NCBI RefSeq assembly: GCF_000764535.1
Contig: NZ_CP009571.1
Location: 3,472,001 to 3,536,000, forward strand
Reading direction: 5' to 3'
Length of the DNA stretch: 64,000 nt
Source: Sphingomonas taxi
Lineage (GTDB): Bacteria; Pseudomonadota; Alphaproteobacteria; Sphingomonadales; Sphingomonadaceae
Part shown: one piece after another, positions 24,392 through 43,950 of the stretch
Numbering within the stretch: position 1 is the first letter of the stretch
Layout of the letters: every line of letters starts with the position of its first letter
Made by a program: the position numbers and the translations under genes
Notes under the pieces: model-generated
Database searches by the model: none
What the model was told of the DNA's origin: nothing
The model's input: only the letters and a program-made list of their open reading frames with translations

Positions 24392-24421
24392 GGGTCGCTC
24401 TTCGGAGCGGCCCATTTTTTT
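24392..24421 (+). terminator. Rho-independent terminator after the TonB receptor
   Basis: GGG-T-CGCTC, a TTCG tetraloop, GAGCG-G-CCC, then A and seven T. Stem about 9 bp with one central mismatch. It starts 27 bp after the receptor stop and separates it from sapC about 75 bp further on. Confidence 0.9.
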
Positions 24422-24495: not shown

Positions 24496-25224
24496 ATGCT
24501 GACGGCGATGAACCGCGTGCTGCTCAACAATATCGATCATGCCGATCTGCGCGTCGCGATCCGCGCTGGCGCGGCGTTCGGCGATGGCGTCAACCAACTG
24601 CCGATCTTCCCGTCCGAATTCGAGGAGGCGCAGCGCGTCTTCCCGATCATCTTCCGCGAGGAGAACGGGGCTCTCCAGCCCTATGCGCTGCTGGGTCTCG
24701 ACCGTGACGAGAATCTGTTCCTCGCCGGCGATCGCTGGACGAGCGACTATGTCCCCGTCTTCCAACGCCGCGGGCCTTTCTCGATCGCCGTCGGCAAGAC
24801 GGCCACAAGCGGCGACGACGAACCGATGGTGCATGTCGATCTGGACGATCCGCGGGTCGGCGCGCCCGACGGCCTGCCCCTGTTCAAGGAGCATGGCGGC
24901 AACGCGCCGCTGCTCGACCATATGACCGACGTGCTGCGGACGATCTTCCAGGGTATGGAAACGACTGCGGCGATCTGCGCGGCGTGGCGCGACGCGGGAC
25001 TGTTGCGCGCGATCACGCTGCAAATCTCGCTCGACGACGATCGGACCTATGAGGTGCCCGATATCCTCACCGTCGACCGTCAGGCGCTCGCCGGTCTGTC
25101 CGGTGAAGCGCTGGAGCGTCTGCACGGTCACGGCCTGCTCGAAGGCGCGATATTCGCCGCCGCATCGCTCGGCAATGTCCAGCGGCTGATCGCGCTGAAG
25201 GCCGCGCGGCAGGCGGGCCGGTGA
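24496..25224 (+). CDS. SapC-family protein (locus A cassette, gene 1)
   Basis: Encodes 242 residues of the SapC family, biochemical role unknown. Recognisable features are the N-terminal INHADLR-like start (NIDHADLRVAI), FPIIFREENG, an ENLFLAGDRW stretch, and a C-terminal GLSGEALERLHGHGLLEGA followed by SLGNVQRLIALK. There is no signal peptide, so it is cytoplasmic. ATG 24496 has GAGAG immediately before it; ATG 24508 is an alternative with that motif 12 nt away. It overlaps the cupin-like gene (GTGA). The paralogue at 39892 shares the order and the ENLYLADGRW and GLSGSALDDLHRDG features. Confidence 0.85.
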   Translation: MLTAMNRVLLNNIDHADLRVAIRAGAAFGDGVNQLPIFPSEFEEAQRVFPIIFREENGALQPYALLGLDRDENLFLAGDRWTSDYVPVFQRRGPFSIAVGKTATSGDDEPMVHVDLDDPRVGAPDGLPLFKEHGGNAPLLDHMTDVLRTIFQGMETTAAICAAWRDAGLLRAITLQISLDDDRTYEVPDILTVDRQALAGLSGEALERLHGHGLLEGAIFAAASLGNVQRLIALKAARQAGR

Positions 25225-26249
25225 GCGCCGGCGCCATCACCGACCGGCGCGTGGCGGAGGTGGCGGCCACCGACGCCGCCCTCGATCCGGACGCCCTCGT
25301 CCGGCGCGGCGAGCCGGTGATCGTTCGCGGCCTGGTGCGCGACTGGCCGCTCGTCGCCGCCGGCCGCCAAGGCAATGCGGCGGCGGCGGACTATCTGCTG
25401 TCCTTCTACAGCGGTCGACCGGGTGTCGGCTACACCGCGCCGGCGGAAGCGGGCGGCCGCTATTTCTACGACGAGAGCCTGACGCGCCTCGATTTCGCCG
25501 CGGAGCGCGTCGACCTCGCCGCCTATCTCCGCCGCATGCTTGCCGGCACGGAGGCGGGCGCCGCATTCTACGTCGGCTCGACCGACCTCGGCCAGTTCTT
25601 TCCCGGCCTCGCAGCGGCCGGCAACGACCTGGCGCTGGACGAGGCGGCGTTCGGGCAGGCGTTGCGCAGCATCTGGATCGGCACGCGCACGATCGCCTCG
25701 GCGCATTACGACATGTCGAACAACATCGCCTGCGTCGCCGTCGGCAGGCGGCGGTTCACGCTCTTCCCTCCCGACCAGATCGCGAACCTCTATCCCGGTC
25801 CGCTCGAGCCCACGCCGGGCGGGCAGGTTGTCTCGCTGGTCGACTTTCGCGCGCCCGATCTCGATCGCTTTCCGGCCTTTGCCGAAGCGCGGCGGCATGC
25901 CCGCGTCGCCGAGCTGGAGCCGGGTGACGCGGTCGTCTACCCCGCTTTGTGGTGGCATCACGTCGAGGCGCTGTCCGACTTCAACGTCATGATCAATTAT
26001 TGGTGGAATACGGCGCCGGCTTTCATGGACTCGCCGATGACGACGATCCTGCACGCCCTGCTCAGCCTGCGCGACCGCCCTGCGCCCGAAAAGGCGGCCT
26101 GGGCGGCGATGTTCGACTATTACGTCTTTGGCGAATCCGGTCGTGCCGCCGCACATCTGCCCGCGCCGGCGCAGGGCGCGCTCGCCCCGCTCGACGCGCG
26201 TGCGGCGCGCCTGCTGCGCGCCCAATTGCTGCAACGGATCAACCGATGA
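25221..26249 (+). CDS. Cupin-like (JmjC/FIH-type) oxygenase (locus A cassette, gene 2)
   Basis: Encodes 342 residues from a GTG overlapping the sapC stop. It fits the cupin_8/JmjC-like fold: GEPVIVRGLVRDWPLV near the N-terminus, SIWIGTRTIASAHYDMSNN with the Fe ligands H162 and D164, RRFTLFPPDQIANLYPGP, and the distal histidine in PALWWHHVEALS (H246). This H-x-D...H set is that of Fe(II)/2-oxoglutarate hydroxylases such as FIH, which hydroxylate protein side chains. The target here is unknown; a protein or small molecule handled by SapC or the halogenase is a fair guess. Its stop overlaps the halogenase start (ATGA). Confidence 0.87.
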   Translation: MSAGAITDRRVAEVAATDAALDPDALVRRGEPVIVRGLVRDWPLVAAGRQGNAAAADYLLSFYSGRPGVGYTAPAEAGGRYFYDESLTRLDFAAERVDLAAYLRRMLAGTEAGAAFYVGSTDLGQFFPGLAAAGNDLALDEAAFGQALRSIWIGTRTIASAHYDMSNNIACVAVGRRRFTLFPPDQIANLYPGPLEPTPGGQVVSLVDFRAPDLDRFPAFAEARRHARVAELEPGDAVVYPALWWHHVEALSDFNVMINYWWNTAPAFMDSPMTTILHALLSLRDRPAPEKAAWAAMFDYYVFGESGRAAAHLPAPAQGALAPLDARAARLLRAQLLQRINR

Positions 26250-27736
26250 ACGGGCCGGCGACGCCCCGCCGCATCGTCATCGCGGGCGGCGGCACCGCGG
26301 GCTGGCTGGCGGCCGCCATCCTGACCCGCCAGCTCGGTCCGTTCGCCGACGTCACGCTGGTCGAATCGGACGAGATCGGCACCGTCGGGGTCGGTGAATC
26401 GACCATCCCGACCGTCCGCGCCTTCCACGCGCTGATCGGCGTCGACGAACGCGAATTTATGCAGGCGACCGGCGCCAGCTTCAAACTGGGGATCTCGTTC
26501 GAGAATTGGGCGCGCGAGGGGGACCGCTACATCCATTCGTTCGGCGATGTCGGCCAATCGACATGGATGAGCGATTTCCACCATTTCTGGCTGGAGGCGC
26601 AGGCGCGCGGTGTCGCCGAACCGTTCGGGTCCTATTGCTACGAGCATGAGGCCGCCGCGGCCGACCGCTTCGCCATCGGCGGGACGCCGGCGCTCAACTA
26701 TGCCTATCATTTCGATGCCGGCCGCTATGCGCGGTTCCTCCGCGGCAAGGCGGAGGCAAACGGCCTGCGCCGGCTGGAAGGCAAGATCGACCGGGTCGTC
26801 CGCGATACCGAAAGCGGCGATATCACCACGCTGATCCTCGACGACGGCACGGCCGTCGCCGGCGATCTGTTCTTCGATTGCACCGGCTTTCGCGCGCTGC
26901 TGATCGGCGAGGCGCTCGGCGTCGGGTTCGAGGATTGGGGCGACTGGCTGCCGACGAACCGCGCGCTGGCGATGCAGACCGAGGCGACCGGCCCGGCGCG
27001 CCCCTATACGCGGGCGATCGCGCACGATGCCGGCTGGCGGTGGAAAATCCCGCTGCACCATCGCGTCGGCAACGGGCTGGTCTATTGCGCCGACTATCTC
27101 AGCGACGATGCTGCGCACGCACGCCTGTTGGCGACGGTCGAGGGCGCGGCGCTGATCGAGCCGCGGCTGATCCGCTTCCGCACCGGGCGGCGCAAGGCGG
27201 CGTGGCAGCACAATTGCGTCGCGCTCAGCCTGGCGAGCGGGTTCGTCGAACCGCTCGAATCGACGAGCATCCACCTCATCATGATCGCGCTGACCCGCTT
27301 CCTGCAATTGCTGCCGAGCGAGCGGCCAAGCGCCGCGGCCATCGCCCGCTTCAACGTTCAGGCCGCGCAGGAGATCGAGGGCGTGCGCGACTTCATCATC
27401 CTCCACTATCATCTCACCGGCCGCGACGAGCCTTTCTGGCGCGACCGGCGAGCGATGACGATCCCTGACAGTCTGTCCGACCGCATCGCGCTCTTCCGCG
27501 ACAGCGCCAACGCCTATCAGGCTGATCACGACCTCTTCCGCGTCGCGTCGTGGCTGCAGGTCATGCTCGGCCAGCGCCTTGCCGCCGCGAGCCATCACCC
27601 GCTGGTTCGATTGATGCCGTCCGATCAACTGCGATCCGCCTTGCGGGATATGCGCACGACGATCGCGCGGTCCGTCGACGGTTTGCCATCGCATCAGGTT
27701 TTTCTGGATGGCTACGTTCGAACAGCAGCCAATTGA
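26246..27736 (+). CDS. Tryptophan-halogenase-family flavoenzyme (locus A cassette, gene 3)
   Basis: Encodes 496 residues. FAD-binding GGGTAG (14-19), ESTIPTVRAFH, the catalytic lysine K80 in SFKLGISFENW, the halogenase signature WRWKIP (264-269), and the active-site glutamate-serine E338-S339 in EPLESTSIHL are all present, so it should be catalytically competent. Characterised relatives such as BrvH brominate free indole, but their natural substrates are unknown. Such enzymes need reduced FAD; no flavin reductase gene is in this window. It overlaps the cupin-like gene by 4 bp and ends the cassette. No signal peptide is seen. The paralogue is at 37405. Confidence 0.92.
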   Translation: MNGPATPRRIVIAGGGTAGWLAAAILTRQLGPFADVTLVESDEIGTVGVGESTIPTVRAFHALIGVDEREFMQATGASFKLGISFENWAREGDRYIHSFGDVGQSTWMSDFHHFWLEAQARGVAEPFGSYCYEHEAAAADRFAIGGTPALNYAYHFDAGRYARFLRGKAEANGLRRLEGKIDRVVRDTESGDITTLILDDGTAVAGDLFFDCTGFRALLIGEALGVGFEDWGDWLPTNRALAMQTEATGPARPYTRAIAHDAGWRWKIPLHHRVGNGLVYCADYLSDDAAHARLLATVEGAALIEPRLIRFRTGRRKAAWQHNCVALSLASGFVEPLESTSIHLIMIALTRFLQLLPSERPSAAAIARFNVQAAQEIEGVRDFIILHYHLTGRDEPFWRDRRAMTIPDSLSDRIALFRDSANAYQADHDLFRVASWLQVMLGQRLAAASHHPLVRLMPSDQLRSALRDMRTTIARSVDGLPSHQVFLDGYVRTAAN

Positions 27737-27748
27737 TGTGAGAAACAC

Positions 27749-27780
27749 CTAATCGGCTCGATGCAACTCGAGCCAATTAG
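27749..27780. terminator. 12-bp stem-loop after the locus A cassette
   Basis: CTAATCGGCTCG (27749-27760) pairs with CGAGCCAATTAG (27769-27780) with one mismatch and an 8-nt loop, 12 bp after the halogenase stop and about 90 bp before the stop of the convergent dehydrogenase. No U-tract follows. A bidirectional terminator or mRNA 3'-end stabiliser is likely. Confidence 0.5.
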
Positions 27781-27871
27781 ATGCGCTGGGTGGTGAGTGT
27801 CCGATCGGGATCGTCTTAGCATCCGACACCTCCGTGGGGTCGGATGCCTATCAACACTCGGGGCGCAGCGA

Positions 27872-29047
27872 TTAACCGTGCGGGCGCATCACCACTTTGA
27901 TGACGCCATCTTCCTTGTCGCGGAACTTGGCGTACATTTCGGGTGCGTCCTCCAGACTGGCCGGATGGGTCACGACGAAGCTCGGGTCGATCTCGCCGGC
28001 CACGATCTTCTCCAGCAGCGGCTTGGTGTAGCGCTGCACGTGGGTCTGGCCGAGCTTGATGGTCAGGCCCTTGTTCATCGCCGCACCGATCGGCAGCTTG
28101 TCGCCCATGCCGACATAGACGCCGGGCACCGAGACGGTGCCACCCTTGCGGCAGCTCATGATCGCCTGGCGCAGGACGTGAACGCGATCGGTGGCGAGCA
28201 TCATGCTGGCCTTGACCTTGTCCATGACGGCATCGGCTGCGCCATGTCCCGCCGCCTCGCAGCCGACCGCATCGATGCAGCTGTCGGGGCCGCGTCCCTT
28301 GGTCCGTGCCTGCAGTTCGTCGTAAACGTCGGTCTCGGCGAAGTTGATCGTCTCGGCGCCGCCAGCTTCCGCCATGGCGAGCCGTTCGGGCAGCTCGTCG
28401 ATCGCGATCACGCGGCCCGCACCCATCATCAGGGCAGAGCGAATGGCGAACTGACCGACCGGGCCGCAGCCCCAGATGGCGACGGTGTCGCCCGGTTCGA
28501 TCTGCGCATTCTCGGCGGCCATGTAGCCGGTCGGGAAGATGTCCGAGAGGAACAGCGCCTGATCGTCGGTGACGGTGTCGGGGATCTTGATCGGGCCGAT
28601 GTCCGCCATGGGTACCCGGAGGTATTCGGCCTGACCACCGCAATAACCGCCCAGCATGTGGCTGAAGCCGAACAGGCCGGCGGGCGAATGGCCCATCGCC
28701 TTGGCGGCCATCTCGGCATTGGGGTTGGTCCGGTCGCAGGCGGCGAACAGACCCTTGCGACAGAACCAGCAGTCACCGCAGCTGATCGTGAACGGCACCA
28801 CGACGCGGTCGCCGATCCTGAGATTGGTGACTTCCGAGCCCAATGCGACGACCTCGCCCATATTCTCGTGGCCGAGGATGTCGCCGGCTTCCATCGTGGG
28901 TTGATAGCCGTCGAGCAGATGGAGGTCCGACCCGCAGATCGCACAGGCCGTGACCTTGATGATCGCATCGCGCGGATGTTTGATCTCGGGGTCCGCGACG
29001 GTGTCGACGCGGACATCGCCCTTACCGTGCCAGCATAATGCGCGCAT
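27872..29047 (-). CDS. Zinc-dependent alcohol dehydrogenase (MDR family, formaldehyde-dehydrogenase-like)
   Basis: Encodes 391 residues from ATG 29047 with GGAGA about 7 nt upstream. Catalytic zinc ligands are in [12 protein letters not shown] and GHENMGEV; the structural zinc loop is [15 protein letters not shown]. The Rossmann motif is [10 protein letters not shown]. The longer C-terminal region and the [18 protein letters not shown] block fit the threonine-dehydrogenase-like or glutathione-independent formaldehyde dehydrogenase branch. It probably oxidises an alcohol or aldehyde with NAD(P). An upstream in-frame extension to 29209 is not supported. It is monocistronic and convergent with the halogenase. 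Confidence 0.88.
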
Positions 29048-29288
29048 GATTCTTCTCCGTATGACCAGGAGCTCCGCCCGGATCGGAAAAGCGACTGTGC
29101 AACCCCAACGCGTTGGTTCGCGGAATGGACCCGGCGGTAATGTCCGTAAGAAGAAACGTCCGCTGTTCCGGTCGAGGCCGACGTCGCCGCGCGCGCTGAA
29201 CGCCGTCAAAGAGCATCCGGGCCGGACTTAAAACGCCGTCTCTCTGATCCGAAAGGTCAAAGCCAGTTCGCCGCGTGCTGTCAGGATT

Positions 29289-29453
29289 TTAAACAGCCTT
29301 GCCGGCAGCACAAGGTGGCCGTTCTGCCGCCGCAACCGGGGCAAGCCGCGCATGCGCTGCCGTCCAGAACCCGACTGGGGTCAGCATGGCGGACCGCAGC
29401 AAGGCCCGGCGCGTGTTGAGAAAGTGCAGGTCAGCCCCCTGTCGCGGATTCAT
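29289..29453 (-). CDS. Possible 54-residue protein with a twin-arginine-like N-terminus
   Basis: ATG 29453 follows AAGGACGAT, a good ribosome site. The product (MNPRQGADLHFLNTRRALLR, then SAMLTPVGFW) has TRRALLRSAML, like the start of a Tat signal, then an Ala-rich stretch and the ending PPCAAGKAV. It is too short for a normal exported enzyme, so it may be a small peptide or the remnant of a longer gene. It lies in the 587-bp stretch between the dehydrogenase start and the antiporter start, where nothing else convincing was found. Confidence 0.4.
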   Translation of the reverse strand: MNPRQGADLHFLNTRRALLRSAMLTPVGFWTAAHARLAPVAAAERPPCAAGKAV

Positions 29454-29466
29454 ATCGTCCTTAAAA

Positions 29467-29501
29467 GGCGGGGCATTCCATGTCGATTGATCCGCCCCGC
29501 C
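29467..29501 (-). terminator. Terminator-like hairpin just before the 54-residue ORF
   Basis: GGCGGGGC (29494-29501 read on the minus strand) and GCCCCGCC (29467-29474) form an 8-bp GC stem with a 19-nt loop, followed on the minus strand by TTTT and then the AAGGA ribosome site of the ORF starting at 29453. It could end a minus-strand transcript or attenuate that ORF. Confidence 0.4.
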
Positions 29502-29634
29502 CATTCCACGCTTGTCGCTACACGTCGGGAAACAGTGAGATGGGGGTGCGGCCCCGAAATGCGCTGGGGGTCACGTTGACCGCGTTGGGGGCAGATTGCA
29601 CAGCATGACCTGACGAATAGGAAAGGGCGGCCCC

Positions 29635-31218
29635 ATGCATCCAGCGGCGAACTTCGAGCTGATCATCGGCATGTTCCTGGTGGTAGTCGGGCTTCACTAT
29701 CTGGCTCGTCGCGTGTCGCTGCCGCCGGCAGCCGCACTGATCGTCGGCGGATGCGCGGTGGCCTTCGTTCCGGGCGTGCAGGGGATCGCGATCGACCCGG
29801 AACTGGTCCTCGTCCTGTTTCTTCCACCCCTGCTGATGGACGGTGCGTGGTTCACCGCCATCGCGCCGTTCCGAAGGCACATGGCCGGCATCCTGTCGCT
29901 CGCGGTCGGTGCGGTCTTCTTCACGACCGCGGTCGTGGCCATCGTGACCAAGGTGCTGATGCCTCAATTGCCATGGGCCGCCTGCGTCGCTTTGGGTGCG
30001 ATCCTGTCGCCTCCCGACGCGGTATCGGCACGCGCCGTGTTGCAGCGGGTCAGGCTGCCGCGGCGGCTGACCACGCTGCTCGAAGGCGAAAGCCTGTTGA
30101 ACGATGCCGCCGGGCTGGTCCTGTTCCGGTTCGCAGTGGCGGCGGTGCTGACCGGCGGCTTCCATCTCGGGGCGGCGACCGGGACCTTCTTCCTGCTGGT
30201 GGCGGGTGGCATCGCGGTGGGGGCGGCGATCGGCGGGTTGTGGGTGGCCCTGCTTCGCCGGCTCGGCGACGATACGCTGATGATCGCGGCGACCGTGCTG
30301 GTCTGCTGGAGCGCCTATATCGCGGCCGAACGGCTGCACGTCTCCGGTGTCATCGCGGTCGTCACCGCGGGCCTGACCTGCGGCTGGTTCCAGCACGTCG
30401 TCTTCGACGCGCGCGTGCGCATCCGGGCGCTGGCGTTCTGGCAGGTGCTCGTGTTTCTTCTCGAAGCTGCCGTCTTTCTGCTTATCGGCCTGTCGTTCCG
30501 GGGCTTGCTCGACCGCGTGGGCGGGCTCGGCATGGTGGTGGATACGATGGCACGGCCCGTGCTGCTCATCGTCGCGGCGGTGATCGTCGCGCGCTTCCTG
30601 TGGATCTTCGGTGTCGACGCCGGCCTCACGATCCTTCGTCGCATCGGGTGGACGCGCCGGCAACCGCTCGGGCCACGCGCGGCGGTGGTGATGAGCTGGG
30701 CGGGAATGCGCGGCGTGGTGACGCTGGCGGTCGCGCTGTCGCTGCCGGAGGCGATGCCGGCGCGGGACCTGATGCTCGTCACCGCCTTTGCCGTGATCCT
30801 GGTCACCGTGCTGGTGCAGGGCACCTCGCTCGGCTGGATCATCCGGAGGATGAAGCCGGCGGAAGACGGCAGCACGCGACCGCCGCTCGATCTTCACGCC
30901 GCCGAGACGATGCTGTTCCGGGCGCAGCTGGCCGTCGTGGAACGCGAGGCGGTGGCAGCCGATGGCACGGTCATCCACCCGCAGCTGTTGCGGCGCTACC
31001 GGACCCGCGCGACGGTAGCGGATGCGTTCGACGGCACGGCCGAGGAGCGCGACGTGGCGATCGCGAGCCATTTCGACGTCATCATCGCCGCCGTCACCGC
31101 CGGCCGCGCCGAACTGGTCCGGCTGCACCGCGCCGGACGTATCGACGACGAAACGCTCCACGACCTCGAACATGACCTCGATCTCGAGGAACTCGCCGCC
31201 GCCGCCGCGAAAGGCTGA
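29635..31218 (+). CDS. CPA1-family Na+/H+ antiporter
   Basis: Inner-membrane cation/proton exchanger of 527 residues with about 12 TM helices in the first 400 residues. Typical CPA1 signatures are FLPPLLMDGAWF, GAILSPPDAVSARAVL and LLEGESLLNDAAGLVLFRFA (the acidic LLND motif of the transport site), plus SWAGMRGVVTLAVALSLP. A charged cytoplasmic tail of about 110 residues, with a coiled-coil-like end (LHDLEHDLDLEELAAAAA), probably regulates activity. It is monocistronic and would serve pH and sodium homeostasis. Confidence 0.92.
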   Translation: MHPAANFELIIGMFLVVVGLHYLARRVSLPPAAALIVGGCAVAFVPGVQGIAIDPELVLVLFLPPLLMDGAWFTAIAPFRRHMAGILSLAVGAVFFTTAVVAIVTKVLMPQLPWAACVALGAILSPPDAVSARAVLQRVRLPRRLTTLLEGESLLNDAAGLVLFRFAVAAVLTGGFHLGAATGTFFLLVAGGIAVGAAIGGLWVALLRRLGDDTLMIAATVLVCWSAYIAAERLHVSGVIAVVTAGLTCGWFQHVVFDARVRIRALAFWQVLVFLLEAAVFLLIGLSFRGLLDRVGGLGMVVDTMARPVLLIVAAVIVARFLWIFGVDAGLTILRRIGWTRRQPLGPRAAVVMSWAGMRGVVTLAVALSLPEAMPARDLMLVTAFAVILVTVLVQGTSLGWIIRRMKPAEDGSTRPPLDLHAAETMLFRAQLAVVEREAVAADGTVIHPQLLRRYRTRATVADAFDGTAEERDVAIASHFDVIIAAVTAGRAELVRLHRAGRIDDETLHDLEHDLDLEELAAAAAKG

Positions 31219-31267
31219 TCGAACGACGGACGCTGCGCGGCGATCCTCGCGGCAGACGGGGTCCCGT

Positions 31268-31393
31268 TTACTTGCGGATCGTGACCATGGCGACCGGGTT
31301 ATCCTTGGTGGACGCGTTGGCGGCGATCGTCTTGACCTTCACGGCCTTGGGCTTGCGGGCTTCCTTGTTCGACTTGTGCTGGCTTTTGGCCAT
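31268..31393 (-). CDS. Very small basic protein (41 residues)
   Basis: ATG 31393 with AAGGA 8 nt upstream. The product starts MAKSQHKSNKEARKPKAVKV and contains eight lysines and few acidic residues; it has no TM helix or signal. A short lysine-rich protein with this kind of start resembles small hypothetical proteins of sphingomonads. Basic composition suggests RNA or DNA contact, but function is unknown. It is convergent with the antiporter. Confidence 0.6.
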   Translation of the reverse strand: MAKSQHKSNKEARKPKAVKVKTIAANASTKDNPVAMVTIRK

Positions 31394-31531
31394 TGTCATC
31401 ATCCTTCGGGCGAGGCGCCCGGTCCTGCGGTACACCCTTCCACCTGGATCGTTGCACGCCATTTCGGTCCGCCCTCGGGATCGCTGCCGAATCCATGCCT
31501 TGGACGTTGGAGAGCGGAACAGGAGAGCCTT

Positions 31532-31753
31532 ATGCCCGACGACAAGCAGACGATTGGAAGCGCGAAGGCGGACGACCGCGGCGAGGCTATCGACAAGGCC
31601 GCACCTCGTTCGGAACACCGCACGAGCGCCGGCAAGGCGGATGATGGCAGGGGGCAGAGTGATACCGGCCGCGCCGACCAGACGGACGACAAGGCCGAAG
31701 CAAGCGACGAGGCGGCTCGGAAGGCCTTCGATCCGGACGCGGAACAGGCGTAG
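31532..31753 (+). CDS. Small hydrophilic protein (73 residues), unknown function
   Basis: ATG 31532 has AGGAGAG about 5 nt upstream. The protein (start MPDDKQTIGSAKADDRG) is very rich in Asp, Lys, Ala and Glu with almost no hydrophobic residues, so it is probably disordered; such composition is common in stress-related small proteins. No family recognised. It is divergent from the 41-residue basic protein across about 138 bp. Confidence 0.55.
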   Translation: MPDDKQTIGSAKADDRGEAIDKAAPRSEHRTSAGKADDGRGQSDTGRADQTDDKAEASDEAARKAFDPDAEQA

Positions 31754-31800
31754 GCACGTCATCATCTTGCAGGGGCCGGCAGAATGGGTAGGTTCCGCCG

Positions 31801-32049
31801 ATGGCTGATTTCGACGACACGTTCGATCCGGAACTGGGTGCGGCATGCAACCGCCTGGCCGCCTTCGTCGAACCTCTGCCCGAGGGTGCGGTGATCGATC
31901 CCGTATCGCACCTCACCGAGCGCGACCTCGCTCTGATCCTCCGCCGTCTGTACGCCACGCGTCATGGCGAGGCGGTCGACGCCGGTGCGACGCATGCCAG
32001 GCCGCGGCGGGAAGGCCGCGTATCCGTGCCCATCACCGCCAAGACTTGA
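31801..32049 (+). CDS. Small protein (82 residues), unknown function
   Basis: ATG 31801 follows GGTAGG about 9 nt upstream and lies 47 bp after the previous small gene, so the two may be co-transcribed. The sequence (start MADFDDTFDPELGAACNRLA) is acidic at the N-terminus with a predicted helical middle (LTERDLALILRRLYATRHGE) and a basic tail. No signal peptide, TM helix or known motif. Coding-like composition supports a real gene. Confidence 0.5.
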   Translation: MADFDDTFDPELGAACNRLAAFVEPLPEGAVIDPVSHLTERDLALILRRLYATRHGEAVDAGATHARPRREGRVSVPITAKT

Positions 32050-33253: not shown

Positions 33254-33577
33254 ATGGGTGAGATCGAGAGGCTGGTCCCGTCAGGGGTCATCGAGCAATG
33301 GGTGTTTCACCTGCGGCGGCAACGTTCGCGGGCGCAGGATGCCTTATGGTTGCTCGACCAGGGCTTCACGATCCACGACGGCCGCGACGGTGTCCCGACG
33401 GCGGACGTGAGCGAGCGCTGGCGACGTGAGCAGGCGACGGTGATCGACGAGGTCAATCACCTGCTTGAACTGTACGACCGCATCAACCTGCGATCGTCGG
33501 AGTTCGTCGCGGCCGAGCGCAAAGCGGGCCGCAGGTCGACCGATGCGCCAAGCTTGCAGACCGAGCCAACCATTTGA
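33254..33577 (+). CDS. Small protein (107 residues), unknown function
   Basis: The product (start MGEIERLVPSGVIEQWVFHL) is charged and probably all-helical, with an amphipathic central region (ERWRREQATVIDEVNHLLEL) and a disordered C-terminus. No signal peptide or TM helix. The upstream ribosome site is weak (GGCGCGAGC). It is followed after 31 bp by another small plus-strand gene. Composition looks coding; function unknown. Confidence 0.5.
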   Translation: MGEIERLVPSGVIEQWVFHLRRQRSRAQDALWLLDQGFTIHDGRDGVPTADVSERWRREQATVIDEVNHLLELYDRINLRSSEFVAAERKAGRRSTDAPSLQTEPTI

Positions 33578-33608
33578 CCGACCTATCAGGGATAAGCGAC
33601 CAGAGCCT

Positions 33609-33821
33609 ATGAACAGGGACAATGAGATCGGCACCATCGAGCGCGCCTTCCAGCTAGCCCGGTCCGGGGCCTGCCATTCGGTCGCCGACATCCGCGCGCA
33701 GTTGAGCGCAGAAGGACGGGATGGCGTCCACGGCCACCTCAACGGGGCAAGTATCCAGCGACAGCTGCGAGAGGCGCTGGCTGCGCGCGGCATCGACGCC
33801 AAATCGGACGATGAAGACTAA
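33609..33821 (+). CDS. Small conserved-looking protein (70 residues)
   Basis: The product (start MNRDNEIGTIERAFQLARSG) is compact, with a helix, a C-H-S turn, a second helix (VADIRAQLSAEG) and a third (GASIQRQLREALAARG). It resembles short hypothetical proteins of sphingomonads with the pattern IERAFQLA...IRxQL...SIxRQLR. The length and fold suggest a DNA-binding or adaptor module, but no family can be named. Probably in a small operon with the preceding gene. Confidence 0.58.
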   Translation: MNRDNEIGTIERAFQLARSGACHSVADIRAQLSAEGRDGVHGHLNGASIQRQLREALAARGIDAKSDDED

Positions 33822-34070
33822 ACGACTGCGGTACGAGCTGAGAGGCTCTGAGCGTCTGGTCGTGGGGCAGCGTATCCCGCCCGAGTCATAATGCAGGTAA
33901 GCGGCGATACCGGCGCCGAAATCGTCGATCTGGCTAGATGAACGACGGCTCGACATTGGCAGGATTGTCGGTAGCCTCTCCGGCTGGGTGCATGCGCGAC
34001 GCGATCGCCGTGCTCGTAAGGGAGCCGGTCTCGGACATTCGTCCCACTGGTCCCGCATGCGGAGAGAGCC

Positions 34071-36302
34071 ATGGTTTCCCGCCGATCTGTTCTATTGGGC
34101 ATGTCGATGTTGCCGGCCTGGCCTGCGCTCGCCCGGGAGGCGCAGGATCGGATCGACGACCTCATCGGGCGCATGACGATCGAGGAGAAGGCGGGGCAGT
34201 TGTCCTGCTTCTCCGATACGATCCGGCCACTCGGACGCCCGACGAATCCGGGTGAGGCTGCGCGCGACGCCGCTGCGATGTTGATGGCGATCCGCGCGGG
34301 GCAGATCGGCATGCTGTTCAACGGCCATGGCGTCGCGGGCGCCCGCAAGGCGCAACGGGCGGCGTTGCAGAGCCGGCTCGGCATTCCGCTGGTCTTCGCA
34401 GCCGACGTCATCCACGGCTATGAGACGATCTTCCCGATCCCGCTGGGGGAGGCGGCGGCGTTTGATGCTGCCTTGTCGGAACGGATCGCACGGGCGGTGG
34501 CATCCGAAGCGACCGCGGGCGGCCTCCACTGGACGTTCGCACCGATGGTCGACGTTGCCCGCGATCAGCGCTGGGGCCGGGTCGCCGAAGGCGCCGGCGA
34601 AGACGTCCATCTCGGCTGCGTGCTGGCCGCGGCGCGCGTACGAGGGTTCCAGGGCAACGATCTGTCGGCGGACGATGCGCTTTGCGCCACCCCCAAGCAT
34701 TTCGCGGGTTATGGCGCCGTCGGTGGAGGCATGGAATATGGCGCGGTGGACGTGTCGCCCGCGACGCTGCGAGCCGTCCATGTCCCGCCGTTCGCCGCGG
34801 CGTTTGCAGCCGGTGCCGGCGCGGTGATGGCGAGCTTTACCGACGTGAACGGCATACCCGCTACCGCCAACCGCCCGCTGCTGACCGGTTTGCTGCGCGA
34901 CGAGCTGGCGTTCCGCGGGCCGTGCGTCTCGGACTATCAAGCGGATCTCGAGCTGATCGCGCATGGCGCCGCTAGCGACGAAGCCGACGCGGCGCGGCGG
35001 GCCATTCTGGCGGGTACGGACGTCAGCATGCAAAGCGGCCTCTACAATGCGCATCTGCCGGCATTGGTGGCGGCGGGGCGGGTGCCGATGGCGCGGGTCG
35101 ATGAGGCGGTGCGACGCGTGCTGGGGCTGAAGATGCGGTTGGGGCTGTTCGATCGACCATTTCGCTCGCTCGACCGTGCCGCGGAACGGACGCGGATCGG
35201 CACGTTGGCAACGCGCGCGCTGGCACGGGAAGCCGCCACGCGCGCGGTCGTTCTGCTCCGCAACGACGGCGACCTGCTGCCGCTGTCGTCCGCAACCAAG
35301 CGTATCGCATTGATCGGACCGTTCGGTGACGACCCGGCGCAACTCGACGGCCCGTGGAGCTTCGCCGGCTACCGGCGCACGGGCATCGATCTGGCCACCA
35401 CGCTGCGCGGCAGGATCACCGCCCCGACACGTTTGATCGTCGAGCCGGGCAGCGGGATCGAGGCGCCGATCCCCGGCGGGATCGAGCGCGCCGTCGCGGC
35501 TGCGCGGGGCGCCGATATCGTGTTGCTCGCGATCGGCGAAGGCGGTGACATGTCGGGAGAGGCGAACAGCCGCACATCCATCACCATACCGGTCGCCCAA
35601 CAGGCGCTGGCCGATGCCGTCGCCGCGACGGACAGACCCATCGTCGTGCTGCTGCGCCACGGCCGGGCGCTCGCGCTGCAGGGGGCGGTGGCGGCAGCGC
35701 CTGCGATTCTGGCGACCTGGTTTCTCGGCTGCGAGACGGGGCCGGCGCTGGCCGACATCCTGTTCGGCGACGTCGAGCCTACCGGCCGGCTGCCGGTGAG
35801 TTTCCCGTTCGCAACCGGTCAGGAGCCCTGGTCCTACGATCGGCTCCCCACGGGGCGGCCGCCACCAGCCGAACCGCAGCCACAGGGTGGTACGGGCAGG
35901 TGGCGCGATGCACCGGATGCCGCGTGTTATGCGTTCGGCCATGGCCTCGGTTACACGCGCTTCGCCCTCGAGACCGTCACCGCCCCGCCCGTGCTGGCGG
36001 ATGCGAGCGACGTGGTCGTCACCGTCCGCAACATCGGCGCACGGCGAGGGACGCATCTCGTGCAGCTGTACGTGCGTCAGCGCGTCGCCAGCCTCGCCCG
36101 GCCGGTGCGGCAGTTGAAGCGCTTCGCCCATGTGACTCTCGACGCAGGCGAAAGCCGGGCCGTCGCCTTGCCCCTCGGCCCGGCGGATCTGGCGATAGTG
36201 GATGGCAGGGGCACGCGACGGATCGAGCCCGGTGATGTCGACATCTGGATCGCGTCCAGCTCCGCCGATCCGGGCTTGCACGCGGTGACACGGCTGGTGT
36301 GA
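34071..36302 (+). CDS. Glycoside hydrolase family 3 (beta-glucosidase-like), Tat-type signal
   Basis: Exported glycosidase of 743 residues. ATG 34071 follows GGAGAGAGCC. The N-terminus MVSRRSVLLG is a twin-arginine motif followed by a hydrophobic stretch ending PALA, so export is probably by Tat in folded form. GH3 domains in order: the N-terminal barrel (LIGRMTIEEKAGQLSCF, DVIHGYETIFPIPLGE, ATPKHFAGYG), the nucleophile Asp in CVSDYQADLEL, the alpha/beta sandwich (RNDGDLLPLS, ALIGPFGDD), and a C-terminal fibronectin-III-like domain (FGHGLGYTRFA onward). The arrangement resembles BglX-type enzymes that release terminal glucose. It converges on the lacI of locus B with a 44-bp gap and may belong to that regulon. 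Confidence 0.93.
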   Translation: MVSRRSVLLGMSMLPAWPALAREAQDRIDDLIGRMTIEEKAGQLSCFSDTIRPLGRPTNPGEAARDAAAMLMAIRAGQIGMLFNGHGVAGARKAQRAALQSRLGIPLVFAADVIHGYETIFPIPLGEAAAFDAALSERIARAVASEATAGGLHWTFAPMVDVARDQRWGRVAEGAGEDVHLGCVLAAARVRGFQGNDLSADDALCATPKHFAGYGAVGGGMEYGAVDVSPATLRAVHVPPFAAAFAAGAGAVMASFTDVNGIPATANRPLLTGLLRDELAFRGPCVSDYQADLELIAHGAASDEADAARRAILAGTDVSMQSGLYNAHLPALVAAGRVPMARVDEAVRRVLGLKMRLGLFDRPFRSLDRAAERTRIGTLATRALAREAATRAVVLLRNDGDLLPLSSATKRIALIGPFGDDPAQLDGPWSFAGYRRTGIDLATTLRGRITAPTRLIVEPGSGIEAPIPGGIERAVAAARGADIVLLAIGEGGDMSGEANSRTSITIPVAQQALADAVAATDRPIVVLLRHGRALALQGAVAAAPAILATWFLGCETGPALADILFGDVEPTGRLPVSFPFATGQEPWSYDRLPTGRPPPAEPQPQGGTGRWRDAPDAACYAFGHGLGYTRFALETVTAPPVLADASDVVVTVRNIGARRGTHLVQLYVRQRVASLARPVRQLKRFAHVTLDAGESRAVALPLGPADLAIVDGRGTRRIEPGDVDIWIASSSADPGLHAVTRLV

Positions 36303-36346
36303 CAGACGACCGTGCCATATCGCGCGTGGGTCATCGTACGGCGTCG

Positions 36347-37405
36347 TCAGCCGGCCGCCTTCGGTGGTGCCGTCGAGCCGCGGACGGCCAGCCCGACCGG
36401 GACGATGGTCGGGCCGTCCGGCAGCGTGCGGCCGGCCTGTTCGGCGATGATCAGTTCCACCGCGCGCGCCGTCACGTCGGCGATCGGCTGGACGACCGCG
36501 GTCAGCGCCGGATGCGTGAAGCGGACGATCGGCGTGTCGTCGAAGCTGACGATCGACACGTCGGAGGGCACGTCGAGGCGACGCTCGCGCAGCAGCTCCA
36601 GCGTCGCGAGCGACATCTGATCGTTGCTCGCGATGATCGCGGTGGGAGGCAGCGGCGCGTCCAGCAAGGCAGCGGCCGCGCGGCGGCCCGAGGCGAAGCT
36701 GAAATCGCCCTCGGCGAGCAGGTCGCCGATCGGCAGACCGGCGGCGGCCATCGCGCTGCGCCAACCGGTGACCCGCCAGCCGCTGAGTTCGTATTCGGCC
36801 GGGCCGGCGATGAAGCCGATCCGCGCGTGGCCGAGCGCGACCAGATGTTCGGTGGCGAGGCGCGCCGCGCCCTCGTCATCCATGGTCAAGGCGAAGCCGC
36901 CGCCCGGCCTGAGCGAGCCGATGCGGGCGAAGCTGATGCCATGGTCCTCGAGCAGGCGGGTGATCAGCAGGTTTTCCGAATGCGGCGGCGTCAGGATGAC
37001 GCCATCGGGTTGCAGCGCGGCGATCGCCGCGAGCAATTCGCGCTCGATATGGTCGCTGTGGGTGTCGACCAGTTCGACGATCATGCGATAGCCGTGTTTG
37101 GCGCAGGTCAGCATGCCGCCCAATAGCATCTGATCGACCCAATCCGCGCCCTCGCGGCTGCGCCAGTCGGCGATCGTCCGTTCGCGGTCGTTGAGCGCCA
37201 AAATCAGATGCGAGCGCGATCCCGCCATGCGCTGCGCGGCGATCGAGGGGACGTAGCCGAGCTTGGCGATCGACGCCTGCACGCGCTGCGTCATCTCGGG
37301 CCGGACGTTCGGCTCCTTGTTGATGACGCGGCTGACGGTCTGCAACGAGACGCCAGCGTCGGCCGCGACGTGGCGGATCGTGACGGCCTGGCGACGGCGG
37401 ACCAT
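36347..37405 (-). CDS. LacI-family regulator, last gene of the locus B cassette
   Basis: Encodes 352 residues. The ATG overlaps the halogenase stop by one base (TGATG), so it is translated from the cassette mRNA. LacI helix-turn-helix (VTIRHVAADAGVSLQTVSRV, INKEPNVRPEMTQRV), hinge region (YVPSIAAQRMAGSRSH) and sugar-binding domain motifs (AIIASNDQMSLATLELL, VSIVSFDDTP) are all present. Cotranscription with the genes it presumably controls would give feedback. The paired GAACGTTC-centred sites at 43793 and 43860 are the best operator candidates. The inducer is unknown. Confidence 0.92.
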   Translation of the reverse strand: MVRRRQAVTIRHVAADAGVSLQTVSRVINKEPNVRPEMTQRVQASIAKLGYVPSIAAQRMAGSRSHLILALNDRERTIADWRSREGADWVDQMLLGGMLTCAKHGYRMIVELVDTHSDHIERELLAAIAALQPDGVILTPPHSENLLITRLLEDHGISFARIGSLRPGGGFALTMDDEGAARLATEHLVALGHARIGFIAGPAEYELSGWRVTGWRSAMAAAGLPIGDLLAEGDFSFASGRRAAAALLDAPLPPTAIIASNDQMSLATLELLRERRLDVPSDVSIVSFDDTPIVRFTHPALTAVVQPIADVTARAVELIIAEQAGRTLPDGPTIVPVGLAVRGSTAPPKAAG

Positions 37406-38892
37406 CAGGCGGCGTCGGGCGCCACGCCGCAATATTGCGCGACGTAGGCGGCATGGGGCGGCAGACCGCGGACCGTGGTCGCGACGTTCCGGCGCAATGT
37501 CGATAGCAAGCGCGCCATATCGTCGTCGCCGAGCTTGGCGGCGATCGGGTGGTGGCTGCGCGGCACGATGCCCTGGCCCAGCATCACCTGCACCCAGCTG
37601 TTCTCGGCGAACAATTCCTCGTTCTTGCGGAAGACGCGGCCGGTCTCGCGGAACAGCTCGATCTTCTGCGCGAGACTGTCCGGAATCTCCATCGTCGCGC
37701 ACTGCCGCCAGAACGGGCTGTCCCGACGCTCGGTCACCTTATAGTGGAGGATCAGGAAGTCGCGGATCTGCAGCATGTCGGTATGCTGCTGGTCGTTGAA
37801 TTCGGCGACGTCGCGGGGGCTGACGTCGCCTGCCGGCATCATCCGGATCAGCCGCAGGATCGCCCGCTGGATCAGGTGGATGCTGGTCGATTCCAGCGGC
37901 TCCATGAACCCGCCTGACAGGCCCAGCGCGATACAATTGCGATGCCATTGCTTGCGTCGCGCGCCGGTGACGAAGCGGATGCGGTTGGGCTGGGTCAGCA
38001 CGCGCCCCTCGACATTGCCGAGCAGGCGGTCGAGCGCGGCGTCGTGATCGAGATAGCGGCTGCAATAGACGATGCCGTTGCCGACGCGATGCTGGAGCGG
38101 GATGCGCCATTGCCAGCCGGCGTCATGCGCCATCGCGCGGGTGAACGGCACCGCCGGGGCGACGCTTTCGGTCTGCACCGCGATCGCGGCGTCGCAGGGC
38201 AGGTAATGCGTCCAGTCGTCGAAGCCGGTGTGCAAAGCCTGTTCGATCAGCAGCGCGCGAAAGCCGGTGCAGTCGAGGAACAGGTCGCCCTCGATCCGCG
38301 TGCCCGACTCGAGCCGCAACGCCGCGATGTCGCCGCTGGCCCCGTCGAGCTCGACCTGCGCGATCTTGCCCTCGATGCGGTGGGCGCCGTCGGCTTCGGC
38401 CATCCGGCGCAGGAAGCGGCCGTACAGCGCCGAATCGAGCTGATAGGCGTAGTTCATGCGGTCGTCGGGCAGATGCGCGAACTTGCCCTCGCGTGCGGCG
38501 ATCAGTTCGAGGCAGTAATCGTCATAGGGCTGGCCGTGGCCGCGGGTCTGGCCGTCGAGCCAATAATGCTGGAAGCCCGCGGCCCAATGGTCGGTGCCGG
38601 TCAGACCGAAGGAATGGAAATAGCTGTCGCCGGCCTGCTTCCATCCGTCGAAGGCGATGCCGAGTTTGAACGTCGCCTGCGTCGCGCGCATGAACTCGGC
38701 TTCGTTGATGCCGAGCAGGCGGTTGAAGGTGATGAGCGGCGGGATCGTCGATTCGCCGACGCCGACGGTGCCGATCGTGTCGGATTCGACCAGAGTGACC
38801 TCGGCGGCGCGGCCCATGACGCGGGCGATCGCGGCGGCGGCCATCCAGCCCGCGGTGCCGCCGCCGGCGATGACGATGCGGCGCGCCTTCAT
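37405..38892 (-). CDS. Tryptophan-halogenase-family flavoenzyme (locus B cassette)
   Basis: Encodes 495 residues, paralogous to 26246-27736. FAD site GGGTAG (10-15), catalytic K76 (TFKLGIAFDGW), WQWRIP (260-265) and E334-S335 in EPLESTSIHL are intact, so it should be active. The middle substrate-facing part differs clearly from the locus A enzyme, which suggests a different or broader substrate. It overlaps the cupin-like gene upstream by 4 bp and lacI downstream by one base. No flavin reductase is encoded nearby. No export signal. Confidence 0.92.
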   Translation of the reverse strand: MKARRIVIAGGGTAGWMAAAAIARVMGRAAEVTLVESDTIGTVGVGESTIPPLITFNRLLGINEAEFMRATQATFKLGIAFDGWKQAGDSYFHSFGLTGTDHWAAGFQHYWLDGQTRGHGQPYDDYCLELIAAREGKFAHLPDDRMNYAYQLDSALYGRFLRRMAEADGAHRIEGKIAQVELDGASGDIAALRLESGTRIEGDLFLDCTGFRALLIEQALHTGFDDWTHYLPCDAAIAVQTESVAPAVPFTRAMAHDAGWQWRIPLQHRVGNGIVYCSRYLDHDAALDRLLGNVEGRVLTQPNRIRFVTGARRKQWHRNCIALGLSGGFMEPLESTSIHLIQRAILRLIRMMPAGDVSPRDVAEFNDQQHTDMLQIRDFLILHYKVTERRDSPFWRQCATMEIPDSLAQKIELFRETGRVFRKNEELFAENSWVQVMLGQGIVPRSHHPIAAKLGDDDMARLLSTLRRNVATTVRGLPPHAAYVAQYCGVAPDAA

Positions 38893-39899
38893 CGGCCCAG
38901 CGCCCGCAGCAGGAAGGCGCGCAGCCGTCCGGCGGTGTCGGGGGTCAACGGCGCGAGGATGCTGCGCGCGCCTTCCGGGATATGCGCCGAGACGGCCGCG
39001 TCATCCTCGAAAACATAATGGTCGAACATGTCGCGCCAATGCCTCTTCTGGTCTTCGGGAAGGTCGCGGATGGCGAGGATCGCATGGTTGAGCGCATCCT
39101 GCGGCTGGCCGAGCCAGCGCGGGCTCGACCGCCACCAGTAATTGACCAGCACGTTGAACGACGCCAGCCCCTCGACGTGGTGCCACCACATCGCCGGCAC
39201 GTAGAGCGCGTCGCCGGCGTCGAGGTCGGCGACCATCGCATGGTCGAGCGCGTCGCGGAACCGCGGATGCGCAGCGAAATCGGGCGCATGGAAATCGACC
39301 ATGCTGACCGCGCGGCCCGCGGGCGTATTGTCGATCGGACCGAGATACAGATTGCGGAACTGCTCGCGCGGGAAGAGCGTGAAGCGGCGCCGGCCGACCG
39401 CGACGCAGGCGAGATTGTCGGGCACGTCGTTGTGCGCCGCGATGCGCGTCCGCGTTCCCATCCAGATGCTGACGAGCGGGTCGCGGGTGCCGAGGTCGAC
39501 GTGGTTCGCCTCGTGCAGGCCGTGAAAGAAGTTGAGCAGGTCGATCGACGCGAGATAGATGGTGCGGGCGTCGTCGTTGGCGTCGATATGCGCGAAGATC
39601 TCGTCGAGCTTCGACTGGAAGGTCGCGAAGTTCATCCCCATCGCATCGTCGTAGAACAGCCGGCCGTCGCTGCCCGGTGCGCCGACCGACACGGTGAACG
39701 GCACGTCGCGGCGGTGCGCGAGGATATAGCGGCGCGCATCCTGCGCGGAGCGGCGACCAGCCTGGACCAACGGCCAGTCGCCAACCAGATTGCGGACCAC
39801 GAACGGCCGGTCGGCGGCGCGCAGCCTCGCGTCGAGGTCGGCGGCATCGACCACCGCCACCTCGGGGACGCGGGGCAGCGCCGCGAAGATGTCAGCCAT
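38889..39899 (-). CDS. Cupin-like (JmjC/FIH-type) oxygenase (locus B cassette)
   Basis: Encodes 336 residues, paralogous to 25221-26249. RPFVVRNLVGDWPLVQAG near the N-terminus, SIWMGTRTRIAAHNDVPDN with Fe ligands H156 and D158, RRFTLFPREQFRNLYLGP, and the distal histidine H240 in PAMWWHHVEGL are conserved. It overlaps the sapC stop region by 8 bp and the halogenase start by 4 bp. Probably a cytoplasmic Fe(II)/2-oxoglutarate oxygenase; whether it hydroxylates a protein or a small molecule is not known. Confidence 0.87.
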   Translation of the reverse strand: MADIFAALPRVPEVAVVDAADLDARLRAADRPFVVRNLVGDWPLVQAGRRSAQDARRYILAHRRDVPFTVSVGAPGSDGRLFYDDAMGMNFATFQSKLDEIFAHIDANDDARTIYLASIDLLNFFHGLHEANHVDLGTRDPLVSIWMGTRTRIAAHNDVPDNLACVAVGRRRFTLFPREQFRNLYLGPIDNTPAGRAVSMVDFHAPDFAAHPRFRDALDHAMVADLDAGDALYVPAMWWHHVEGLASFNVLVNYWWRSSPRWLGQPQDALNHAILAIRDLPEDQKRHWRDMFDHYVFEDDAAVSAHIPEGARSILAPLTPDTAGRLRAFLLRALGR

Positions 39900-40593
39900 G
39901 CGCCAGCGTCGCGTTCTTGCGGGCGATCAGCGCCGGCAGATTGCCCTGCGACGCCAACGCCATGAAGATCGGCAGCAGATGCCCGTCGCGATGCAGATCG
40001 TCGAGCGCCGACCCCGACAGGCCGCGCAGCCGATCCTCGTCGATGACGTGGAAGCCGACCAGCCGATTGATCGATCCGTCGTCGAGCGGGACTTCGAGGG
40101 TCAGCGGCTCGAGCAGTTCGTGGCGATCGAGCGCGGCGAAGAAGCCGGCGCTCTCGCGATAGCCGGCGTCGAGCGCGCCCAGCTGCTCGATCATCGCGGC
40201 GAGGCGGGGGGAGGGCTGGCCATCGGCGTCGAACAGCAGGTCGCCATCGCCGATCCGCGGGCTGGCCATGTCGATATGGACCTGCGGCCCCTGCGCGCTC
40301 GCGCCGATCAGCAGCGGCTGGATCGCCATCGCCAGGGGCACGTAGCGCGCATCCCAGCGGCCATCGGCGAGGTAGAGGTTCTCGTCATTCTCGAACCCGA
40401 ACATGGCGAGCGCGAGCGTGCTGCCGTCGGCGAGGTTGCGGCGGAAGAGGATGAGATAGTCGTGCTGCACGCGACGGAATTCGTCGGGGACGATCAGGCA
40501 GCTCATCTGCGCATCGCCCAGCGCGGCGCTGCGTTCGCGGCGGATGCGGGTGCCGGCATGCGTGGCGGCGGTAAGGATGGCATGGTCGGGCAT
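39892..40593 (-). CDS. SapC-family protein (locus B cassette)
   Basis: Encodes 233 residues from ATG 40593. It has the family stretch FENDENLYLADGRWDARYVPLAM, then HIDMASPRIGDGDLLFDA, and the C-terminal FHVIDEDRLRGLSGSALDDL with LASQGNLPALIARKNATLAHG. It is the first gene of the cassette; about 136 bp and a terminator separate it from the TonB receptor stop. The N-terminal part differs from the locus A SapC more than the C-terminal part does. The function of the family is unknown; it may be a scaffold or substrate carrier for the two enzymes that follow (inference). Confidence 0.83.
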   Translation of the reverse strand: MPDHAILTAATHAGTRIRRERSAALGDAQMSCLIVPDEFRRVQHDYLILFRRNLADGSTLALAMFGFENDENLYLADGRWDARYVPLAMAIQPLLIGASAQGPQVHIDMASPRIGDGDLLFDADGQPSPRLAAMIEQLGALDAGYRESAGFFAALDRHELLEPLTLEVPLDDGSINRLVGFHVIDEDRLRGLSGSALDDLHRDGHLLPIFMALASQGNLPALIARKNATLAHG

Positions 40594-40676: not shown

Positions 40677-40715
40677 ACGAAAAGAGCCACCTCTTCACAG
40701 AGATGGCTCTTTCCT
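40677..40715 (-). terminator. Rho-independent terminator after the locus B TonB receptor
   Basis: On the minus strand AAAGAGCCA pairs with TGGCTCTTT across a 14-nt loop, followed by TTTTCG. It lies 15-50 bp after the receptor stop and before the sapC start, so the cassette needs either read-through or its own promoter, as in locus A. Confidence 0.85.
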
Positions 40716-43750: not shown

Positions 43751-43792
43751 GGTAATCCTCCCCGATGACAGGCGCGGCGATCCCGCGCTCTT

Positions 43793-43804
43793 GAGAACGT
43801 TCAC
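43793..43804 (-). promoter_or_regulatory. LacI-type operator GAGAACGTTCAC (site 1), receptor side
   Basis: A 12-mer with the palindromic core GAACGTTC, 43 bp before the receptor ATG. A -35 TTGACA for leftward transcription lies at 43825-43830, so the site falls just downstream of the expected -10, a normal repressor position. The identical 12-mer occurs inverted at 43860-43871. Confidence 0.7.
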
Positions 43805-43824
43805 TTCACGGATAAGCCGTTGTC

Positions 43825-43830
43825 TGTCAA
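43825..43830 (-). promoter_or_regulatory. Probable -35 element TTGACA of the locus B receptor promoter
   Basis: Perfect -35 hexamer on the minus strand, 75 bp upstream of the receptor ATG. The -10 about 17 bp downstream is poor (GAAGTG), as often found in alphaproteobacteria. The operator at 43793-43804 lies immediately after. Confidence 0.5.
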
Positions 43831-43859
43831 GCGCATCCTGTCGAACGACCGTCACCGTT

Positions 43860-43871: not shown

Positions 43872-43950
43872 TTAATATGCTTTGAAGAGCGTCATGCCTG
43901 CAAAGGGCGACAGGCCGGCGCGGCGAATGCGTCGGCGACGGGAGGATTGC

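Follow-up and report, generated by a model that had tools for sequence, protein, structure and literature searches.

Conserved receptor-linked cassettes of SapC, oxygenase and halogenase genes in Sphingomonas taxi: a possible route to envelope protein modification

The window analysed here, a stretch of 64,000 nucleotides of Sphingomonas taxi (NCBI RefSeq assembly GCF_000764535.1, contig NZ_CP009571.1, positions 3,472,001 to 3,536,000 of the forward strand), carries two cassettes in which a TonB-dependent receptor gene is followed by genes for a SapC protein, a Cupin_8 oxygenase resembling FIH (Cup) and a flavin-dependent halogenase (Hal). Judged from their sequences, both are old members of a widespread cassette, whose standing as a functional unit is well supported. 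We propose that it works as a receptor-plus-modification operon, in which SapC would present a client, most likely the co-encoded receptor, to Cup and Hal; we put the probability of this reading at roughly 0.42.

Results

A preliminary description of the window, drawn from its letters, had reported two SapC, Cupin_8 and Trp_halogenase trios with overlapping gene ends, intact catalytic motifs and a TonB receptor with its terminator in front of each, and this account was upheld. The Pfam families match at these places (Table 1), all four junctions overlap (SapC1/Cup1 by 4 nt, GTGA; SapC2/Cup2 by 8 nt; Cup/Hal by 4 nt, ATGA, in both cassettes), the H-x-D...H of the oxygenase and the Lys, WxWxIP and Glu of the halogenase are intact in both cassettes, and a TIGR01782 receptor and a terminator-like hairpin precede each trio. 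The trio as a unit stood only in part: the three genes do belong together, but the unit is larger, with the receptor as its usual fourth member and DUF6445 as an occasional one. The family scores of Table 1 compare with cut-offs of 310 bits (curated, TIGR01782) and 21 bits (PF04820); both oxygenases exceed the PF13621 cut-off and carry the triad and a basic residue at the 2-oxoglutarate (2OG) position, and both SapC proteins match PF07277 over its full length, with H15, E41 and N73 in place. The ATGA overlap of Cup1 and Hal1 sets the start of halogenase 1 at position 26246. From the translations, by eye, the likely true starts of the receptors are M57 at 21152 for receptor 1, followed by a signal-peptide-like stretch, and M36 at 43750 for receptor 2, and a signal peptide was seen at the N-terminus of none of the SapC, Cup and Hal proteins.

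The cassette recurs widely. Neighbourhoods were scored as the genes within 6 kb of SapC, duplicates (L001-L017, L030-L032, L052 and L054) having been removed. The 80 closest loci, which are the best 80 of 295 confirmed stretches and nearest relatives by construction, hold 82 SapC genes: 75 have Cup, Hal and receptor, four Cup and Hal without receptor, two Cup and receptor without Hal, and one none of them. Within the order, SapC was found in 93 of 118 genomes, and the 107 SapC rows of this sample, two being gene fusions (L137 and L138), comprise 32 complete neighbourhoods, 13 with Hal and receptor without Cup (the two fusions among them), one with Hal only and 61 with none; this solitary share should not be read as a population rate, because the sample combines 25 loci that have flanks of 1.5 kb with wide loci picked to favour second copies. 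Across the phylum, SapC occurs in 139/397 genomes, and the 41 rows divide into seven complete, three with Hal and receptor, two with Hal only, one with receptor only and 28 with none. Three of the four SapC rows of S. taxi itself are complete and one has none. Each of the same-family genomes listed has at least one SapC, and 'core' SapC genes without a halogenase within 6 kb were seen at L018 and L125-L134. The genes come in the order receptor-SapC-Cup-Hal or receptor-Hal-SapC-Cup-Hal, as receptor-SapC-Hal-Hal, or as Cup-SapC divergent from receptor-Hal, and named hosts include Sphingomonas, Caulobacter, Phenylobacterium, Sphingosinicella, Amphiplicatus and Hephaestia. In Sphingomonas faeni ALB2 (L146), a stretch of about 1.1 kb separates two tail-to-tail cassettes of different subtypes, of which the second has a receptor that extends past the locus.

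A set of 105 cassettes was assembled with all four genes and a receptor stretch of more than 2400 bases, a choice that favours intact cassettes. All four genes co-diverge in this set (r 0.84-0.91, against a permutation maximum of 0.23), and an overlapping start codon is available to Cup in 72/105 and to Hal in 46/105. The surroundings vary: no Pfam family occurs more than five times among the 91 flanking proteins, which argues that the shared partner is the receptor and not a pathway. Families of carbohydrate type do recur there (GH43 five times, LacI three, GH3 and GH2 twice each).

SapC, for which neither a sequence search nor a fold comparison returned a match among solved structures, was modelled confidently with AlphaFold2 (56 sequences; predicted local distance difference test (pLDDT) 94; predicted template modelling score (pTM) 0.88). 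Residues were compared between 121 SapC proteins linked to both Cup and Hal, 17 linked to Hal without Cup, and 93 others, which include two rows with Cup and receptor and without Hal (L176 and L188). H15, E41 and N73 are kept in every class, including 93/93 each among the others, so the core job of SapC appears independent of the enzymes. R120 and P39 are typical of Cup-linked SapC (115/121 each, against 3/17 and 2/17 without Cup and 5/93 and 2/93 without halogenase), and W81 is kept in 118/121, 16/17 and 52/93, respectively. R120 and P39 are thereby candidate positions for a contact with Cup.

Natural fusions tie SapC to the halogenase. L137 and L138 contain frames of 674 and 687 amino acids (aa) in which a halogenase carries a C-terminal SapC-like domain, each adjoining a receptor. 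Among the best 120 of 7999 matches to one of these two frames, P0121 of Paremcibacter congregatus, 32 combine PF04820 with PF07277, and all 37 proteins of at least 600 aa match a home-built SapC profile, some of them weakly. P0184 and P0202, of about 770 aa, fuse a halogenase to a full-length SapC; in a model of P0202 both parts are mostly confident, with a disordered linker at 513-550 and a pTM of 0.76.

Conserved adjacency, co-divergence and these fusions are stronger grounds than the overlaps alone for regarding SapC, Cup and Hal as one unit, and they support the view of the preliminary description that the proteins act together; the refuting outcome that it named, rare adjacency of the three families elsewhere, was not observed, 75/82 SapC genes of the closest loci being complete. 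Its suggestion of SapC as a scaffold fits the fusions. Its term 'duplicated cassette' is misleading if taken as a recent event, because identity between the cassettes is low (SapC 35%, Cup 45%, Hal 52%, receptor 36%) and their nearest relatives are separate: L141 (Sphingomonas sp. RIT328) for all four genes of cassette 1, L108 of the same genus for cassette 2. A recent local duplication was rejected on these grounds.

Solitary SapC genes, without halogenase, were surveyed for exporter genes within 5 kb, the query proteins being taken from 4 of the 29 phylum loci. A secretion-type gene lies near 10/29 of these: a pair of GAF-HlyD and M50-HlyD genes at five (three also with a SecA-like gene), a ShlB-type gene at four, and OEP/HlyD only at one. 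A frame of more than 1300 aa lies near 9/29, some of these giant frames being possibly spurious, and the 36 wide solitary loci of the order sample show two ShlB genes and six giant frames. At L227, L229, L242, L256 and L257, halogenase-free SapC stands beside the GAF-HlyD and M50-HlyD fusion proteins, and L229, L256 and L257 add a SecA-like protein and a giant frame, an arrangement that resembles a dedicated export system.

The catalytic residues are conserved throughout the cassette set. Cup keeps H-x-D...H, and Arg at the position of the FIH Lys, in 105/105; Hal keeps its Lys and Glu in 105/105, and WxWxIP likewise save for the P (104/105). FIH chains are the best solved relatives of Cup2 (E 1.5e-17 over residues 154-261), and the three best solved relatives of Hal2 are 6y1w (Xcc4156, E 1e-208), 9luq (E 1.5e-163) and 6frl (BrvH, E 2e-132), BrvH and Xcc4156 having the same Lys, Glu and WxWxIP as the cassette halogenases; MibH (5uao) is a distant match (E 6e-52). 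NCBIfam gave weak matches of both halogenases to QhpG (E 1e-6 and 9e-8) and of Hal2 alone to GoxB, all far below the curated cut-offs, a chloramphenicol-pathway halogenase model being equally weak.

Receptor and SapC are commonly separated by a hairpin. Among the 93 of the 105 cassettes with both genes on the same strand and a gap stretch of 50-420 bases, 61 gaps contain a terminator-like hairpin, against 0.95 expected from shuffles that preserve base composition only and not dinucleotides. Hairpin 1 was found both by a terminator scan (two sites in the scanned region, against 1.9 in shuffles) and by our own script; hairpin 2 was found by the script only and is not in the list of the scan. In the cassette-linked receptors a Y-N-W motif is fully conserved (113/113); of ten S. 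taxi receptors with no halogenase beside them, three have its N and four its W, several of the ten being badly aligned.

The DUF6445 gene directly upstream of receptor 1 had been overlooked in the preliminary description. S. taxi has five copies, 5/5 in receptor/halogenase loci; cassette 2 has none in the window. The pattern HxD(118,120)...H205...RxT(223-225), invariant in 20 aligned homologues, would suit a putative Fe(II)/2OG oxygenase, an assignment made by motif for a family without a solved relative: the PDB gave no match by sequence and, by profile, 11 chance-level matches (E at least 0.09) with no oxygenase among them. A phylum search listed 51 matches in 34/397 genomes. Outside S. taxi there are 32 strong matches, of which 22 were examined with flanks of 1.5 kb; 17 of these flanks contain a halogenase, SapC, Cup or receptor gene, none being found in the flanks of L268, L272, L277, L282 and L287; the weak matches examined (7/14, L288-L294) have no cassette gene save one marginal halogenase hit. 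DUF6445 has the look of a Fe(II)/2OG oxygenase family that has escaped annotation and is associated with receptor/halogenase loci.

Family searches of the whole genome returned 15 halogenases, 4 SapC, 5 Cupin_8 and 91 receptor plugs, and, as read from the coordinates, 10 of the 15 halogenases are clustered right next to a receptor. Caulobacter vibrioides, the control genome of these searches, gave matches for SapC, Cupin_8 and halogenase. One locus of this genome (L020, C1:1576001-1596000) has four consecutive halogenases, two Cupin_8 genes and a divergent receptor. Elsewhere in the window stand a CS1-pilus type usher (TcfC and CooC_C domains; 51802-54360, minus strand) and a sulfatase followed by a formylglycine-generating-enzyme-like gene (2346-5011, plus strand).

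Table 1. Features of the two cassettes and their surroundings (window positions).
Feature	Position	Strand	Basis
LacI-family regulator, divergent from cassette 1	19020..20180	-	Pfam PF00356/PF13377
DUF6445 protein (PF20043), putative Fe(II)/2OG oxygenase, directly before receptor 1	20262..20969	+	PF20043 241 bits (C1:3492298-3492951)
TonB-dependent receptor 1 (TIGR01782)	20984..24364	+	TIGR01782 613 bits; Pfam plug and barrel
Terminator-like hairpin, receptor 1/SapC1 gap	24392..24413	+	9-bp stem and T run
SapC1 (PF07277)	24496..25224	+	209 bits; AlphaFold2 pLDDT 94
Cup1, Cupin_8 (PF13621)/FIH-like Fe(II)/2OG oxygenase 1	25221..26249	+	235 bits; H-x-D...H and Arg
Hal1, flavin-dependent halogenase 1 (PF04820), 496 aa	26246..27736	+	601 bits; K, E, WxWxIP
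Glycoside hydrolase family 3 (GH3), near cassette 2	34071..36302	+	PF00933/PF01915
Hal2, flavin-dependent halogenase 2 (PF04820), 495 aa	37405..38892	-	635 bits; best solved relative 6y1w (Xcc4156)
Cup2, Cupin_8/FIH-like oxygenase 2	38889..39899	-	225 bits; FIH chains best solved relatives
SapC2 (PF07277)	39892..40593	-	196 bits
Terminator-like hairpin, receptor 2/SapC2 gap	40682..40711	-	13-bp stem and T-rich tail
TonB-dependent receptor 2 (TIGR01782)	40730..43855	-	TIGR01782 590 bits
GH3, divergent from receptor 2	43882..46257	+	PF01915/PF00933
Major facilitator superfamily (MFS) transporter, adjoining second GH3	46324..47517	+	PF07690

Discussion

From a mechanistic standpoint, the receptor would be made in large amounts, and read-through of the terminator on a common transcript would give a lesser quantity of the cytoplasmic SapC/Cup/Hal module. 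A separate promoter behind the hairpin, instead of read-through, is possible; if the transcript is shared, the hairpin would keep receptor levels high and enzyme levels low, which would suit enzymes that serve that very receptor. SapC would be the adaptor, binding both the client polypeptide and the halogenase, the latter through direct contact. Cup would hydroxylate side chains of the client, probably joined in cassette 1 by DUF6445, and the flavin enzyme of BrvH/Xcc4156 type would brominate (or oxygenate) client side chains, with bromide as the presumed halide, the most likely client being the co-encoded receptor while it is still on the cytoplasmic side of the inner membrane. An envelope protein brought in by SapC is suggested because the receptor is the usual partner and flanks vary, because Cup is FIH-like and Hal of the open-site, brominating type, and because SapC occurs fused to halogenases and, elsewhere, sometimes beside exporters.

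FIH is an asparaginyl protein hydroxylase of the JmjC/Cupin_8 class, in which the triad forms the iron site and the basic residue serves at the 2OG position. Cup shares both features with it, at the similarity noted above, and may likewise act on a protein; it differs from FIH in being bacterial and in being encoded with SapC and a halogenase. Xcc4156 is described as exclusively brominating model substrates and as having an open site into which peptides might fit, and native substrates of the BrvH/Xcc4156 type are stated there as unknown (PMC7336383). MibH and SrpI are flavin halogenases acting on a ribosomal peptide, akin to the polypeptide client proposed here, SrpI requiring the leader and performing bromination only (PMC12615548). 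Unlike these, the cassettes show no recognisable precursor peptide of MibH/SrpI type beside them, as far as inspection without a systematic search for small open reading frames goes, and MibH itself is only distantly similar to Hal2.

Several observations weigh against the receptor-plus-modification reading. The enzymes are absent beside many SapC genes (61/107 order rows, 28/41 phylum rows), the fusions L137 and L138 have no Cupin_8 gene near, and co-divergence is expected of any operon. The placement of SapC against the halogenase in the P0202 model is unreadable, given the disordered linker and a model that came with no predicted aligned error. The searched exporters are absent near 19/29 phylum and 34/36 wide order loci with solitary SapC. 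The conservation comparison found no modification site in the receptors, the Y-N-W motif singling out none since it also occurs in unlinked receptors, and outer-membrane proteins are exported unfolded, which leaves little time for modification. Finally, the recurrence of carbohydrate-type families in the flanks speaks against it.

This last point leads to the main rival, a possible if somewhat doubtful one, in which aromatic glycosides or phenolics enter through the receptor and glycoside hydrolases release the aglycone. Oxygenase and halogenase would then hydroxylate and halogenate the aglycone so that the cell can use it, signal with it or detoxify it, SapC acting as a helper. Carbohydrates are often the ligands of TIGR01782 receptors, and this route is favoured by the carbohydrate-type neighbours in the window (two GH3 genes, one MFS transporter and one LacI regulator) together with the recurrent flanking families. 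The likeness to carbohydrate loci with TonB receptors (polysaccharide utilization loci, PUL, and carbohydrate utilization loci with TonB-dependent receptors, CUT) extends to the receptor, LacI, GH3 and MFS genes; in Xanthomonas CUT loci, receptor and halogenase genes are presumably neighbours as well. Unlike PUL/CUT loci, however, the cassettes have one enzyme module in common among loci with different flanking enzymes, and this variation of neighbours suggests no shared small molecule; moreover, FIH modifies proteins, and SapC elsewhere can adjoin protein exporters. BrvH and Xcc4156 do use free indole in vitro, according to PMC5945002 and PMC7336383.

The remaining explanations are weaker. 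QhpG is a flavin monooxygenase acting on Trp inside a polypeptide, and its profile matches, with that of GoxB to Hal2, would fit a flavin enzyme that oxygenates protein-bound Trp without halogenation in the cell, SapC still bringing the client. We hold this unlikely, since the matches fall so far below the cut-offs, a chloramphenicol-pathway model does as well, and the Lys, Glu and WxWxIP required of a halogenase are kept across the 105 cassettes. That SapC itself serves as substrate or as carrier, acting on the envelope once conserved side chains of it have been hydroxylated or halogenated, would account for the retention of W81 in enzyme-linked SapC; it is quite improbable, as H15, E41 and N73 are invariant in SapC without halogenase. 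Finally, the two copies, separated by 9.7 kb in the window, might be taken for recent duplicates or chance neighbours with no joint function, which is very hard to reconcile with identities of 35-52%, separate nearest relatives, the fusions and the retention of the cassette in its own class and other classes of the same phylum.

Work on BrvH and Xcc4156 treats the enzyme alone: the text of PMC5945002 is without the words 'TonB', 'SapC' and 'oxygenase', and that of PMC7336383 without these and 'receptor'; the brvH gene cluster is figured in the former and known here from its legend. A literature search found no paper containing both 'SapC' and 'halogenase', subscription papers and most of bioRxiv lying outside it, and none joining 'tryptophan halogenase', TonB-dependent and Xanthomonas. 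Papers that combine a halogenase with a TonB-dependent receptor or transporter do exist, represented here by titles and the starts of abstracts, and may mention such loci in their body.

In its widest form, the receptor-plus-modification reading would have Proteobacteria hydroxylate and brominate their own TonB receptors, SapC passing them to an FIH-like hydroxylase, sometimes DUF6445, and one to several flavin brominases, and thereby tune ligand binding or recognition by phages and toxins; this extension is speculative and, as a whole, rather doubtful. If true, halogenated or hydroxylated outer-membrane receptors would be, as far as known, a new kind of surface-protein modification. The cassette, the fusions and the DUF6445 link name partners and a testable client for BrvH-type halogenases, and offer a first way into the functions of SapC and DUF6445.

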